The position numbers and the translations under genes are program-made. 64,000 bases of DNA from positions 1 through 64,000 of the forward strand of contig NZ_JAQTZU010000020.1 in NCBI RefSeq assembly GCF_028687615.1, in the 5' to 3' direction. Each line of letters begins with the position of its first letter. The stretch's first letter is position 1. The notes under the pieces were generated by a model. The model ran no database searches. It was not told the DNA's origin and saw only the letters and a list, made by a program, of their open reading frames with translations. The stretch comes from Methylovulum sp. Its GTDB lineage: Bacteria > Pseudomonadota > Gammaproteobacteria > Methylococcales > Methylomonadaceae. Shown here in pieces: positions 2,745-10,968 of the stretch.

Positions 2745-4832
<2,088 letters not shown>

Positions 4833-5095: not shown

Positions 5096-5320
5096 TTATA
5101 CACAAAACCTGTGGATAAGTTTGTGGATAGCGTGTCGGCTTTTAGGGTTAATTACGGTTTTTATTAAAGTTTTGTTAAATTGTACAAATATAGACCATTC
5201 ATATAATTATCTTATTTATCAAATAATTAGATTTTATAACCGATTATCATACAGTTACCTGAACAGTAAATCCAAGTCGTTGATTCTTTCTGTGGGCAAC
5301 TGTTATTGAATCAAAACCAA
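5096..5320 (+). repeat. DnaA-box repeat unit 1
   Basis: Opens with TTATACACA (5096-5104) facing TGTGGATAA (5110-5118, the reverse of TTATCCACA), then TGTGGATAG (5122-5130). All three fit the DnaA consensus TTATNCACA exactly or with one mismatch. In the middle is the conserved palindrome TTGTACAA followed by AT-rich sequence. It ends with CTGTGGGCAACTGTTAT enclosed by TTGATTC and GAATCAA. Confidence 0.75.
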
Positions 5321-5431
5321 TTTCGTTGATGAAGCCTAACGCTATTTAGTATTTTTAATTTTTTCTATTCCGCAAACACAATCAAGAATATTTTGCCGGA
5401 CTGTATTTTAAATCTATACACCTTAAAAAAG

Positions 5432-5640
5432 TTATACACAAAATCTGTGGATAGCTTGTCGTTACAAATGTTTAGCTACGGATTTTATTGGTGTTTTGTT
5501 AGATTGTACAAATCCACGTCAATAATAAATACAATTAAAAACAGTTAGTTATATTTTATAACTATATTTCATGTAGTTAAAATCAGGGCAATCTAAGTGC
5601 TTGATTGATTCTGTGGGCAACTGTTATGGAATCAAAACAA
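5432..5640 (+). repeat. DnaA-box repeat unit 2
   Basis: Same order of blocks as unit 1: TTATACACA (5432-5440) facing TGTGGATAG (5446-5454), then TTTTGTTAGATTGTACAAAT near 5494-5513, then AT-rich sequence. The CTGTGGGCAACTGTTAT block follows near 5611-5627, with TTGATT before it and GAATCAA after it. Confidence 0.75.
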
Positions 5641-5742
5641 ATCAGCCCCAAAAAGGTTTTTTATTTGTAAGTTTGCGCTATTTTTGCGCCGCGTTAAAAA
5701 CGGCTTTGTCCAGTCATTATTTAAAATAGGTTACTTTTTAAC

Positions 5743-5950
5743 TTATACACAAAACCTGTGGATAACTCTGTGGATTGATTGTTTTATTTACAGCTTAATT
5801 GCGGTTTTTGTTACAGTTTTGTTAGATTGTACAAATATAAACCAATATAATTGTTTATATTTTTCATTCACTTATAATTTTTCTAATGAGTCAATAGCTT
5901 ATCTGAATAATAAACTTAAGTGCTTGATTCTTACTGTGGGCAAGTTTAAA
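5743..5950 (+). repeat. DnaA-box repeat unit 3
   Basis: TTATACACA (5743-5751) faces TGTGGATAA (5757-5765), followed by the weaker TGTGGATTG (5769-5777). TTTTGTTAGATTGTACAAAT follows at about 5817-5836. The closing CTGTGGGCAA is kept, but the hairpin arm after it is lost, so this is the decayed or end copy. Confidence 0.75.
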
Positions 5951-6129
5951 AACTCGAAAACATCTTCTATTCAAAATAGCAATATTTTTGTGCTTCAAAT
6001 CACAAAAAATAGCAAATACTATGTGTTCAGCAACAAATAGGTTGGTATCTAAACTATCCGATGCCTCTATCCTTCCGCCGCCGGCCAAACAAGCTTACCC
6101 AAATCTACAGAACGTTACTTCCCCCGATT

Positions 6130-9100
6130 TCAAACCCGCTCATCCCAGGCTTTATCCAAACGTTTTGCTGAAATTGGATAAGGTGTTTTCAGATGCTGGG
6201 CGAACAGCGACACGCGGAACTCTTCCAGCATCCAACGAAAAACCTCCTGCTCAGGCAGGATTTGGATTTTGGCGGCCTTTTTTTCCACGTCTTTCCAATA
6301 GCGCAAAACATAGCGGTTCAGCTCTTGGTTTTTCTGGGCATTATTGTCCAGCTTATCCAAGCGGTAGCTGATTGCCTTTAAATAACGCGGAAACGCTTTG
6401 AGCTGTTCATAAGGCGTGTTGCGCAAGAAACCGGCATAAACCAATACCGCCAATTGCGCGTTAATGTCTTGCGCCAGTGGATCACTCGCGTTCAGGCGTT
6501 GCAATTGGTTTTTGATAGCTGAATAAGCGTTCATGACCTCTAAGGCCAAGCGTCCGGCTTCGTTGGCGACACTCAGCAAACTCGCTTTGTTTTGCTTCAA
6601 ACTGTCTTCAAACGCGGCTTGGGTGCGGATCGTGCGCCCGTCGATAAAAACATGGTGCAAAATCAATTGCAGCATATCCTCTTTATAAGACGCAGTGGCG
6701 GGTAGTTTGAGAATCGGATGTGGGGGCAAACGCTGGTAAGCCAGCTCGGCAGCGGCGGCTTGCAGATTGTTTTTGGTCAAATAGGTGCAGTCTTTGCGTA
6801 AAGACAGTTGGAATAAACGCAATAGACCTGCCTGATGTTCGGCATCGGCTTTGGCCCCCGTATCGAAAATCTTCACGCCCACGGCATCGCCTTCATCGAC
6901 TATCGCCGGAAAACCGACAAAATTTTGGCCTTGCTGGATGGCGGCACGGGTTCCCGACCCGTCGCCGCACTTCCACCCTCCCTGGCGGTCGAACGCATAG
7001 GTATCCGGCAAATCATCAAACGCCCATTGGATGCAGCCCGTGTAACTCAACTCATCGGCGGCGATTTGGTCGAAACTTTGCACGGCTTGGCTGGCATGTT
7101 TTTGTTGTAATTTTTTTAAATCCCGCCCGTAATCCAGCAATTTGCCGTTTTCGTCGATGACGCGGAAATTCATTTTCAAATGCTCGGTCAGGCCGTCCAG
7201 CACCCACGCATTCAACGGAATCGCTTCGCCCGTCAATTTGCGCAAGCGGTTGCCTAGCCATTCTTGCAACGTGCCTTTAAAATCCGGCTCGATTTCCAAA
7301 CAACGTTTGACCGTTTCCGGCACAGGCACAAAATGCTTGCGGATGTTTTTGGGCAAACCCTTAATCAGCGCGACGCATTTTTCTTCCAGCATCCCCGGCA
7401 CTAGCCAATCAAACGGCACGGGCGACAATTGGTTAAGCTGATGCACCGGAATCACCGCCGTCACACCATCCTCATCATGACCTGGTTCAAAACGGTATTG
7501 CAGGGCGATGCTGAGATTGCCGATTTTCTTGTGGTCAGGATAATCCCATTCGTTGACGTAACCGTCTTTTTCACGCGTCAAATCTTCCTTGGTCAAGAAC
7601 AAAAATTTCGGGTTCGTTTTTTCAACCGTCTTGCGCCATTGGTCCAGCGTGATGCCGTTGACGACTTCAGCGGGCAGTTTTTGGTCATAAAACGAATACA
7701 GCCACAATTCATCTTCGACCAAATCCACGCGCCGCCCTTTGTGCTGGATCATGCCGACTTCTTCCAAGAGCTTTTGGTTAGCGACATAAAACGGCGCGTT
7801 GCTGTGGTATTCGTGGCTGACCAAGGCCGATTGGATGAACAGCATACGCGCTGATTTGGCATCGACGCGCTCGTAAGGAATTTTCCGTCCCGCTTGCAAG
7901 GTCAGACCGTAAAGCATGGTGCGTTCGTAAACCGCCGAGCGTCCAGCTTTTTTCTCCCAATGCGGGTCGTAATGCGTGTGCTTGACCAAATGCCCCGCAC
8001 AGGCTTCTATCCATTCCGGCTCGATACGCGCCACGTTACGGGCGTAGACTTTGCTGGTCTCCACCTGTTCCGCCGCCATAATCCATTTGGGCTTGACTTT
8101 GTGCAATCCAGAACCTGGGAAAATGAAAAACTTCAGGCCACGTGCGCCGAGATATTCGTGGGTTTCGTGGCGGAAACCAATGTTGGATAGCAGACCCGTT
8201 AATAAGGCGCGGTGGATGTTTTCGTAGCGGTATTCGAAAATCCCCCCCGCCCCCTCGGCAAATGCTCCCGGCTTTGCTCTACCTCCTGCATCCATGCAGT
8301 CGCCTTTTTCAAAGGGAGGAGTTTTGTCTTTACCTTTATTAGTTGCAGAATGTTCAGCTTCCCCACCCTTTGAAAAAGGGGGGCTGGGGGGGATTTTTTG
8401 AACGGTTGAGATTTCATTCAACTTCATATTCAAATCGCCCTTCACCACCTGCAAAATCTGCGCGTGAATATCAAACCATTCGCGCATCCTTAAATACGAC
8501 AAGAAATTATCCGAGCAATATTTCCGTAATTTGCTGTTGGAAAGATGCTTTTTCTGTTCTTCGTAAGTGTTCCACAAATTGAGCAGCGTCAAAAAATCCG
8601 ATTCAGGATGACGGAACGCCGCATGTTTGGCTTCGGCCTGGCCCATTTTTTCGGCAGGTTTATCGCGCGGGTCTTGCACGCTCAAAGCCGCGACGATAAT
8701 CGCCACTTCGTGCAAACAACCTTCCTCATGCGCGGCGACCAACATCCTCGCCAGTTTCGGGTCGGTCGGGAATTTTGCTAACTGCTTGCCCGTTTCGGTC
8801 AATTGCCCCGCTTTATCGAGCGCATTGACCTCGTGCAGCATGGTTTTGCCGTCGCGGATCATCTTGTCATCGGGCGGTTCGATGAAAGGGAAATCTTCAA
8901 TATCGCCCAATTTCAAGGCCAACATTTGCAAAATGACCGCCGACAAATTCGTCCGCAAAATTTCCGGTTCGGTAAATTCCGGCCTAGCTTCGTAGTCTTG
9001 CCTTGAATACAAACGGATACATATCCCTTCCGCGACCCGTCCGCAACGTCCGGCGCGTTGGTTCGCGCTGGATTGCGAGATGCGCTCTATCGGCAGGCGT

Positions 9101-10260
9101 TGGATTTTGCTTTTGGGGCTGTAACGGCTGATGCGGGCGTGGCCCGTGTCGATTACGCCACGAATGCCGGGTACGGTGAGCGAGGTTTCGGCGACGTTGG
9201 TGGCCAAGACGATGCGGAGTTTGCCACCCTTAGGATTGAACACGCGCTCTTGTTCGCTGACGCTGAGCTTTGAATACAGCGGCAAAATGTCGTACTCGGT
9301 GGGATGATGTTTTTTTAACGAATCAGTGGTTTCGCGGATTTCCCGCTCGCCGCTTAAAAAAATCAGAATATCGCCGCGCAAATCGCGGCTCAGTTCATCC
9401 ACAGCATCGAGAATCGCATTTTGGAGGTCATCCGTCGTTTCGTCATTGGCAGCTTCTTCATCGTCATCCTTGGGTTCAATCGGGCGATAACGGACATCCA
9501 CCGGATACGTCCGCCCCGATACTTCAATTATCGGCGCACCGCCAAAATGTTCGGAAAAACGTTGGGTGTCGATGGTCGCCGAGGTGATGATAAGTTTCAG
9601 ATCAGGCCGTTTCGGCAACAGCCATTTCATATAGCCAAGCAGAAAATCAATGTTCAGGCTGCGTTCGTGCGCCTCGTCAATGATGATGGTGTCGTATTGG
9701 TTCAGGTACGGGTCGTTTTGCGATTCCGCCAATAAAATCCCGTCGGTCATCAGTTTAACCAGCGATTCGGCATGGGTTTTGTCGTTAAAACGAATTTTAT
9801 AACCCACCGATTTGCCGATAGTCTCGCCCAATTCCTCGGCAATGCGATCCGCCACCGTCCGCGCCGCAATCCGGCGCGGTTGGGTATGCCCGATAAAACC
9901 CGCCGCACCGCGTCCAATCGACAGACAAATTTTCGGCAACTGCGTGGTCTTCCCTGAACCCGTTTCGCCGCACATCACCACCACTTGATGGTTTTTAATC
10001 AGCTCGGCAATTTCATCTTTTTTGCCCGTAACCGGCAAATCAGGGAAGTTCAGCGGCGGGATGCTGGCTAGGCGTTTGTTCCTGAACGCCACGGATTTGT
10101 CGATACGGCCGGCAAGATTCGCCAACGCACTATCAACAGGCTTGCCTTTCTTGGCATCCTGACGCAAACGGTCTAACTGCCGTTTCAGCGCGTGGCGGTC
10201 TTGGTTCAGGCAAAGGGGTAATTGGCGGGTGAGTTGTTGGAACAGTTCGGTAGTGGACAT
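6130..10260 (-). CDS. hrpA: ATP-dependent RNA helicase HrpA (DEAH box)
   Basis: Large cytoplasmic DEAH-box RNA helicase, linked in other bacteria to mRNA processing and rescue of collided ribosomes. The 1376-residue product shows Walker A GETGSGKT (residues 98-105), DEAH (195-198), SATIDTQRF, the C-terminal helicase motif QRAGRCGRV, then the HA2/OB and DUF3418-type region. Family members are near 1300 residues. The excess is explained by about 54 residues (roughly 621-675) encoded by an inserted palindromic repeat (8237-8400), which reads KIPPSPPFSKGGEAEHSA at its start and stays in frame. The insertion falls in a linker between MKLNEI and YENIHRALLTGLL, where a surface loop could tolerate it. 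Start ATG at 10260. Confidence 0.96.
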   Translation of the reverse strand: MSTTELFQQLTRQLPLCLNQDRHALKRQLDRLRQDAKKGKPVDSALANLAGRIDKSVAFRNKRLASIPPLNFPDLPVTGKKDEIAELIKNHQVVVMCGETGSGKTTQLPKICLSIGRGAAGFIGHTQPRRIAARTVADRIAEELGETIGKSVGYKIRFNDKTHAESLVKLMTDGILLAESQNDPYLNQYDTIIIDEAHERSLNIDFLLGYMKWLLPKRPDLKLIITSATIDTQRFSEHFGGAPIIEVSGRTYPVDVRYRPIEPKDDDEEAANDETTDDLQNAILDAVDELSRDLRGDILIFLSGEREIRETTDSLKKHHPTEYDILPLYSKLSVSEQERVFNPKGGKLRIVLATNVAETSLTVPGIRGVIDTGHARISRYSPKSKIQRLPIERISQSSANQRAGRCGRVAEGICIRLYSRQDYEARPEFTEPEILRTNLSAVILQMLALKLGDIEDFPFIEPPDDKMIRDGKTMLHEVNALDKAGQLTETGKQLAKFPTDPKLARMLVAAHEEGCLHEVAIIVAALSVQDPRDKPAEKMGQAEAKHAAFRHPESDFLTLLNLWNTYEEQKKHLSNSKLRKYCSDNFLSYLRMREWFDIHAQILQVVKGDLNMKLNEISTVQKIPPSPPFSKGGEAEHSATNKGKDKTPPFEKGDCMDAGGRAKPGAFAEGAGGIFEYRYENIHRALLTGLLSNIGFRHETHEYLGARGLKFFIFPGSGLHKVKPKWIMAAEQVETSKVYARNVARIEPEWIEACAGHLVKHTHYDPHWEKKAGRSAVYERTMLYGLTLQAGRKIPYERVDAKSARMLFIQSALVSHEYHSNAPFYVANQKLLEEVGMIQHKGRRVDLVEDELWLYSFYDQKLPAEVVNGITLDQWRKTVEKTNPKFLFLTKEDLTREKDGYVNEWDYPDHKKIGNLSIALQYRFEPGHDEDGVTAVIPVHQLNQLSPVPFDWLVPGMLEEKCVALIKGLPKNIRKHFVPVPETVKRCLEIEPDFKGTLQEWLGNRLRKLTGEAIPLNAWVLDGLTEHLKMNFRVIDENGKLLDYGRDLKKLQQKHASQAVQSFDQIAADELSYTGCIQWAFDDLPDTYAFDRQGGWKCGDGSGTRAAIQQGQNFVGFPAIVDEGDAVGVKIFDTGAKADAEHQAGLLRLFQLSLRKDCTYLTKNNLQAAAAELAYQRLPPHPILKLPATASYKEDMLQLILHHVFIDGRTIRTQAAFEDSLKQNKASLLSVANEAGRLALEVMNAYSAIKNQLQRLNASDPLAQDINAQLAVLVYAGFLRNTPYEQLKAFPRYLKAISYRLDKLDNNAQKNQELNRYVLRYWKDVEKKAAKIQILPEQEVFRWMLEEFRVSLFAQHLKTPYPISAKRLDKAWDERV
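8237..8400. repeat. MITE-like palindromic element inserted in frame in hrpA
   Basis: The ends are inverted repeats (AAAATCCCCCC on the left, GGGGGGATTTT on the right). Inner arms also pair: a CCCTTTGAAAAAGGGGGG block at the right and a related CTTTTTCAAAGGGAGG in the middle. On the minus strand it is translated as part of HrpA, with proline- and glycine-rich text (PPSPPFSKGG, KTPPFEKGD). The exact ends and any target duplication cannot be fixed from one copy. Confidence 0.75.
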
Positions 10261-10344
10261 TAAGTAATGAATAGAAATGACTAAGCTTGGACAATTTTCG
10301 GAAACTAACGGCCTTAAACCATTAAGTTTAGGTTCACAGAATTG

Positions 10345-10747
10345 TTAAGCGGGTACTGGAGGCAATAAACTGACATACGGATAATTTCGGATTTTTCCGT
10401 CTAACGTCATAAGCTGGCAACCATAAATACGGGTAGTTGCCACATTTAATTGATCGTCGGGATCGGTGAAATGGTTGTGGCAACTGAGTGGCATCTATAA
10501 CGATTTCGGGAGTTAAGTTGAGCAATTGGATATTGAGATAAGCAAGAGCTTGCCCGAACCATTCATTTACAGGGCAAGGCAGGGATAAGCGTTGGTATTC
10601 GACCAGTTTTGCTATCTCCCAACACGAAATGATGCTGACACCCAAAGCGGTATTTTCATGATTTTCTAAATATTGGGCATATTCAGGCTTTAAACGCTCA
10701 TCACCATGCACCCACCATAGCCAAATGTGCGTATCCAGCACAATCAT
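10345..10747 (-). pseudogene. PIN-domain toxin (VapC type), 3' part frameshifted
   Basis: Begins MIVLDTHIWLWWVHGD, a PIN ribonuclease N terminus with the first catalytic Asp. The ATG overlaps the antitoxin stop as ATGA. Reading stays normal to QLPQPFH near 10470. The next bases then read RSRRSIKCG in the open frame (stop at 10334). The +1 frame instead gives TDPDDQLNVATTRIYGCQ and TLDGKIRNYPYVSLLPP, stopping at 10345. That is the expected PIN end with its acidic DPDDQ motif. A one-base insertion or two-base deletion at about 10466-10469 therefore splits the gene, either a real inactivation or a sequencing error. Confidence 0.75.
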
Positions 10748-10968
10748 TTCAATACATCCCAATCTGTCAACGCCACAGGTTCAAAAGGCTCTTGATAATC
10801 AATTTTTGTGTTCCGCAAAGGATATTTAGTTTCTGGCAGTGTTTGTTGTTGCTCTTGGGACAAGCCTAATCGGAATTTATGAATCAAATTATAAAGCTCA
10901 GCGAGCTTATCAGCAGGGATATGGTTAATTTCATTGAAAATTTGTTCTTGTAATAACATTTTCTGCAC
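10744..10968 (-). CDS. Antitoxin of the PIN toxin pair (DUF2281/VapB-like)
   Basis: A 74-residue protein with an N-terminal helical segment (QIFNEINHIPADKLAELYNLIHKF) and the C-terminal EPFEPVALTDWDVLK, a tail typical of small antitoxins paired with PIN toxins. The tail normally binds the toxin, and the N terminus usually binds the operon promoter. The stop overlaps the toxin ATG as ATGA, so the two would be made from one transcript. Family assignment rests on the tail and the partner. No DNA-binding fold is obvious by eye. Confidence 0.7.
   Translation of the reverse strand: MQKMLLQEQIFNEINHIPADKLAELYNLIHKFRLGLSQEQQQTLPETKYPLRNTKIDYQEPFEPVALTDWDVLK

Follow-up and report, generated by a model that had tools for sequence, protein, structure and literature searches.

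In Escherichia coli, DARS2 is located upstream of mutH and DARS1 upstream of uvrB. The hallmark of these DnaA-recharging sites, as given in PMC5742627 and PMC10380432, is an equal spacing of the DnaA boxes in DARS1 and DARS2, with boxes I and II arranged head to head in a pair that is essential. According to PMC5742627, the flank of DARS1 is about 50 bp long, and no added factors are required in vitro; for DARS2, the sites IBS1-2 have been published as lying 3 bp apart (PMC4245941). In addition, datA, oriC/mioC, polA, purH, nrdA, and nrdD are bound by DnaA in E. coli (PMC11317965). DARS outside E. coli are already known, inasmuch as many proteobacterial species are stated to contain sequences resembling those of DARS1 and DARS2 (PMC10380432), and E. 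coli-proximal beta- or gammaproteobacteria to retain the layout of DARS2 (PMC5742627).

In the window (the whole stretch of 64,000 nucleotides analyzed here, on contig C52 of a genome of 56 contigs), sequence inspection and repeat alignment revealed three direct-repeat units whose first DnaA boxes start at 5096, 5432, and 5743. Successive starts are separated by 336 and 311 bp, and ungapped repeat blocks recur at distances of 321-324 bp. The array is intergenic, being situated between a gene for EF-G (2745-4832, minus strand) and hrpA (6130-10260, minus strand), and its GC content is 29%, compared with 48% for the whole window. One ORF of 118 aa with a TTG start (5684-6040, plus strand) overlaps unit 3 and was taken for a chance reading frame; a search of the window for non-coding RNA gave no Rfam match at gathering scores. 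The window also contains genes for a formaldehyde-activating enzyme, a CitG-like protein, and a RimK-like protein, which, together with those for EF-G and HrpA, suggest a methanotroph-like gammaproteobacterium. Adjoining hrpA is a PIN-domain ORF (10334-10762), possibly the toxin of a toxin-antitoxin pair.

Each unit begins with box I, which reads TTATACACA on the plus strand in all three cases (5096-5104, 5432-5440, and 5743-5751). Exactly 5 bases past it, box II faces box I from the minus strand, reading TGTGGATAA in units 1 (5110-5118) and 3 (5757-5765) and TGTGGATAG in unit 2 (5446-5454). Box III, parallel to box II and 3 bp beyond it, reads TGTGGATAG in unit 1 (5122-5130, minus strand) and TGTGGATTG in unit 3 (5769-5777, minus strand), so that the plus-strand cores extend over 5096-5130 and 5743-5777. 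The core of unit 2 (5432-5454, plus strand) has no box III; the alignment of the units contains a 12-base gap at this place, box III has been lost through a 12-bp deletion, and the IHF-like sites of unit 2 are displaced by about the same 12 bp. When the 22-base facing pair was searched for with up to 3 mismatches, it was found three times in the window and not once in 100 shuffles. Single DnaA boxes were not in excess (10 in the window versus 8.6 expected); what is non-random is the arrangement of the boxes, not the number of single ones. The earlier note had described three tandem units of facing boxes 5 bases apart, two of them with a third box, in an AT-rich and gene-free stretch between EF-G and hrpA; its description of the boxes was borne out, and the cluster is real, non-random, and likely to manage DnaA. 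Across the 56 contigs, the facing pair occurs at four places, namely the three array units and one site on contig C3. At this second locus (C3, 55529-55551; locus L041, 10530), the facing pair is accompanied by a weak box III, with tamA/tamB-like genes on one side and a gene for an ABC substrate-binding protein on the other; a similar element lies at 553821 of genome G001 and on contig C5 of genome G003, beside a tamA-like gene.

In units 1 and 3, the three boxes start at 0, 14, and 26 (box I, 5 bp, box II, 3 bp, box III; start spacing 14 and 12 bp), and the same trio with identical orientation and spacing was found in DARS1 and DARS2 of E. coli. Accordingly, units 1 and 3 possess the three-box core and the head-to-head box I at DARS spacing; the three-box core is not present in unit 2. 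Among eight DnaA-binding regions of E. coli that were scanned, only DARS1 and DARS2 contained the trio, and none was detected in datA, oriC/mioC, polA, purH, nrdA, or nrdD (3.5-6.5 kb each, one threshold). Because the spacing and orientation of the trio are those of DARS1 and DARS2 and are absent from the six other E. coli regions, we consider it likely that the array is a set of tandem DARS-type DnaA-recharging sites, two complete and one decayed; recharging activity we infer from E. coli biochemistry.

Behind the core, unit 1 contains, at +86 counted from the start of the unit, a Fis-like 15-mer with 1 mismatch (5182-5196, plus strand), an exact IHF 13-mer, TATCAAATAATTA, at +121 (5217-5229, plus strand), a second exact IHF 13-mer at +177 (5273-5285, minus strand), and, past the IHF sites, a weak box IV, TGTGGGCAA, with 2 mismatches (5291-5299, minus strand). 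In unit 2, an IHF 13-mer with 1 mismatch lies at +107 (5539-5551, plus strand), as expected after the 12-bp deletion, followed by an exact second IHF 13-mer (5594-5606, minus strand) and the weak box IV (5612-5620, minus strand). Unit 3 carries the Fis-like 15-mer, again with 1 mismatch, at +86 (5829-5843, plus strand), a degenerate IHF 13-mer with 2 mismatches at +119 (5862-5874, plus strand), a further one with 1 mismatch at +146 (5889-5901), an exact second IHF 13-mer (5917-5929, minus strand), and the weak box IV (5935-5943, minus strand).

The same anatomy was examined in the genus, using 37 elements that remained from 51 readings after 14 had been dropped, by our own choice, as reverse readings of the same pair. 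The Fis-like 15-mer (at most 1 mismatch) lies at +86 in 30 of the 37 elements. Exact plus-strand IHF 13-mers were found at +119-121 in 17 of the 37, and elsewhere within 0-199 only at +149 (two cases); exact minus-strand 13-mers were found only at +162-177 (19 matches in the 37 elements). This second IHF site is found mainly at 164-167 or at 173-177, positions that differ by about one helical turn. Most elements also have a weak fourth box (at most 2 mismatches, minus strand) at +180-207 (27 matches). When exact facing boxes were sought with gaps of 0-30 allowed, 16 of the 20 genus genomes had such pairs, and the gap was 5 in 28 of 29 distinct places and 20 in the remaining one (a second reading of one place in genome G002, via its third box, was not counted), and the spacing of the facing pair is thus under constraint. 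In the family, the pair (at most 1 mismatch) was found in 111 of 121 genomes, compared with two hits of a reversed-pattern control, both in one genome.

As an independent test, loci were picked by the box trio alone in a scan of GTDB contigs, which yielded at least 116 loci; these are a sample, and related species among them are not independent. Their labels are mostly gammaproteobacterial, including betaproteobacterial genera (such as Nitrosomonas and Sulfuritalea), with a few others. Flanking sites were assessed in 110 of the at least 116 loci, six having been dropped for flanks that were too short. Among these 110 listed loci, an IHF site (at most 1 mismatch) was found at +118-122 in 58 and a Fis-like site at +85-87 in 72; both were present in 40 and neither in 20. 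The largest counts in 200 composition-only shuffles were 4 for IHF and 11 for the Fis-like site. Moreover, among 42 viral loci with nearly the same trio, the IHF site was found in none and the Fis-like site in one. The part behind the boxes was also represented by a profile trained on the genus only (R2), which was run on 100 of the at least 116 listed loci and gave 31 matches at E ≤0.1, a rough E-value; 30 of these 31 lay within 12 bp of the predicted place, 24 of the 30 being in records without a methanotroph label and six in methanotroph-labelled ones.

The likeness to DARS2 extends beyond the boxes, in that IHF-like sites lie behind the core, more DnaA boxes follow, and Fis sites are involved. 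The same motif scan of E. coli DARS2 placed IHF-like sites at +93 (minus strand) and +109 (plus strand) and an exact Fis match at +145; by our own assignment, the two IHF-like sites would fit the published IBS1-2. The array sites are at fixed offsets, but their order and distances are unlike those of DARS2. The E. coli order is core-IHF-Fis, whereas that of the array is core-Fis-IHF (Fis-like at +86, IHF at about +120); the first array IHF site is about one helical turn past the +109 site of DARS2, and the second is at +162-177. Furthermore, DARS2 is one locus in E. coli, whereas the array consists of tandem units. With DARS1, the array shares the trio geometry, and it differs in having conserved IHF and Fis-like sites.

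A 140-position profile (R1) was also compared with E. coli; its E-values, like those of R2, are rough. R1 matched DARS1 over the core only (17.8 bits, E=0.001), scored 10.4 bits at best with DARS2, and gave 13.0 bits (E=0.03) with datA and 12.5 bits with the dnaA-dnaN gap of the array's own genome; outside the core, DARS2 was without a match to the module (R1 E=0.48; R2 no hit). With 18.0 bits for the dnaA-dnaN gap of G001 and 23.0 bits for that of G003, these gaps, like datA, rank above DARS2, and R1 is not specific for DARS at low scores. In both of these gaps, R1 aligns from box II onward with box I missing. These likely origin gaps (L250, 7128-7253, in G001; L251, 7743-7844, in G003) contain module boxes II and III without box I. 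A 38-base sequence from a relative, compared with E. coli genomes, gave mostly partial matches (at least 80% covered in 8 of 5,426) and was not used.

If the array acts as DARS-type sites, the head-to-head boxes I and II would be occupied by DnaA-ADP in a complex that box III makes stronger. Behind the core, Fis (near +86) and IHF (near +120) would bend the DNA and aid ADP release by the complex, and the freed DnaA would take up ATP and be able to start replication at the true origin. Partners for such a process are encoded in the same genome, including Hda (253 bits), IhfA (158 bits), and a Fis-like protein of 94 aa, whose score of 82 bits falls short of the Fis family cut-off (99) and whose gene lies directly downstream of dusB (408 bits). 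The presence of Hda suggests that DnaA-ADP is made and would need recharging. Our guess is that tandem copies raise the strength of the array or buffer the loss of one unit.

Several findings count against the DARS-type reading. These include the missing box III of unit 2, the 2 mismatches of the unit 3 IHF site at +119, the unmatched flanks of DARS2 with the reversed Fis/IHF order, and the ranking of datA and the origin gaps above DARS2 by R1. In addition, the orthologue of the array in G001 lies at 0.80 of the replichore, i.e. between origin and terminus (the array's own genome is too fragmented for placing); in E. coli, moving DARS2 near terC moderately inhibited initiation timing (PMC5742627). 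Finally, many relatives have the module upstream of priA, a position that could equally be accounted for by a promoter role.

The spread of the module was assessed with R1, which was run on 80 of the at least 116 listed loci; genome counts take every match at E ≤0.001. In the order, R1 matches were found in 145 of 151 genomes (127 of 132 good ones), a positive genome having 1-15 of them, and in the class, in 195 of 229 genomes (169 of 198 good ones). The class matches listed (E ≤3e-9) all cover model positions 7-116 or more; weaker ones are possibly partial or in origin gaps. The array's own genome has five matches, four of which were located. When the units were used in BLAST searches, a match was found in 18 of the 20 genus genomes including their own, some over only about 30 bases. 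One genus, g14, had the facing pair in none of its seven genomes (G032, G058, G080, G097, G111, G123, and G132), and G032 was without an R1 match; the module has perhaps been lost there.

The chromosomal place of the module was determined in 21 genomes with dnaA placed, minus G124 and G223, with genome lengths rounded except for G001. Among the matches listed for these 19 genomes, in which dnaA and the module share a contig, replichore positions ranged from 0.02 to 0.98, so no single chromosomal place is kept. Tandem pairs were placed at 0.80-0.98 of the replichore in G001, G046, G070, and G077.

An alternative is that the array is a DnaA-controlled promoter region, where DnaA together with Fis and IHF regulates the neighbor gene (EF-G here, priA elsewhere); we regard this as unlikely. 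It would fit the frequent proximity of PriA, whose gene lies close to the core in 30 of the at least 116 named loci listed and in 31 of 89 other loci; the longest PriA ORF starts 62 bp from the core edge in five genomes (G004, G010, G012, G016, and G017) and 181 bp from it in G006. It would also fit the retention of EF-G within the genus, where EF-G lies beside the units in G003, G012, G013, and G019 with no hrpA seen in the fetched flank. However, neighbors vary on both sides, as hrpA adjoins the units without EF-G in G015, G028, G047, and G070. Tandem units beside hrpA recur in G001, G011, G015, G047, and G070, and on their far side EF-G was found in G001, DNA polymerase III alpha in G070, and a different gene in G015. 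In the window, the EF-G start is 264-911 bp away from the beginnings of units 1-3, and promoter-like matches in the gap were no more numerous than expected by chance (5 versus 5.4), on which ground an array of promoters was rejected. As for the E. coli DARS neighbors, UvrB and MutH were found near none of the at least 116 loci listed.

It is also quite improbable, in our estimation, that the array is a datA-like site that titrates DnaA or, with IHF, drives hydrolysis of DnaA-bound ATP. Of the options raised in the earlier note, which did not name DARS, a titrating site comes nearest in spirit. Both the array and datA are non-coding and combine several DnaA boxes with IHF binding; a double box resembling boxes II and III is present in datA, and R1 scores datA above DARS2. 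The geometry, however, is that of DARS1 and DARS2: datA is without the facing trio at the same scan threshold, and the head-to-head pair is a hallmark of DARS (PMC10380432). The proposed effect of datA on DnaA is also the opposite one, and datA is close to oriC in E. coli (PMC5742627), unlike the G001 units, which are 1.87 Mb from dnaA.

The remaining proposal of the earlier note, that the array serves as the replication origin either of the chromosome in this lineage or of an integrated element, has very little probability: although the stretch is AT-rich and nearly gene-free, its boxes carry the words of E. coli oriC boxes, and the dnaA-dnaN gaps of G001 and G003 have boxes II and III in common with R1, the sampled cumulative GC skew of G001 (single contig, same genus; 20 samples of 20 kb) has its minimum at about 1.17-1.42 Mb, bracketing dnaA at 1.28 Mb, with the orthologous units at 3.15 Mb, and on this result a replication origin was rejected. 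In the array's own genome, dnaA is on a different contig and the dnaA-dnaN gap holds five strict boxes; the true origin is most likely in that gap. Several modules per genome and the wide conservation in genus and order likewise argue against an origin, and because of this conservation that of an integrated element was rejected too, though two genomes have cores beside an F-type traN. A dnaA homologue was found in the fetched stretch of one (L192) of the at least 116 cores listed. This single locus may be an origin.

With the DARS-type reading preferred, the array is most likely a known kind of site in a different layout, having Fis between core and IHF and being arranged in tandem. Among the titles and abstract openings surveyed, a scope that excluded most subscription papers, none concerned a core-Fis-IHF layout, a link to priA, or tandem DARS. 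We tentatively suggest, as a possibility, that the compact core-Fis(+86)-IHF(+120) form is the widespread form of the recharging site in the Gammaproteobacteria in the wide sense (betaproteobacterial orders included), often by priA and, in several genera, in tandem near hrpA; that E. coli DARS1 and DARS2 are rearranged, derived forms; and that copy number and place are evolvable settings of initiation timing. The DARS work we have seen is on E. coli, and a rigidly spaced module that can be recognized throughout a class would serve as a comparative yardstick of the DARS parts that matter. It would reveal reproducibly placed sites for Fis and IHF, and the idea that bacteria adjust initiation through the number and place of DnaA-recharging sites would become testable. 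Named relatives include Methylomonas and Pseudomonas species.

DARS-like cores were also observed next to an F-type T4SS gene, traN, in two loci (L239, 7593-7639, and L247, 6609-6655; contig C89 of G003 and, with a homologous gene, contig C14 of G010), which suggests that DnaA-recharging sites, or decoys, may be present on mobile elements. In addition, 43 viral contigs (L328-L370) carry the exact three-box trio, searched for with a pattern slightly looser than that of the GTDB scan; 42 had enough flank for the comparison given above. These viral trios are possible DnaA-binding decoys. Spread of the module by viruses was considered and set aside, as none of the 42 had the IHF site. Still, most of the R1 profile could be aligned to a few viral loci (L330 with 32 bits, L361 and L367 with about 27 bits), and these few may contain a diverged module.
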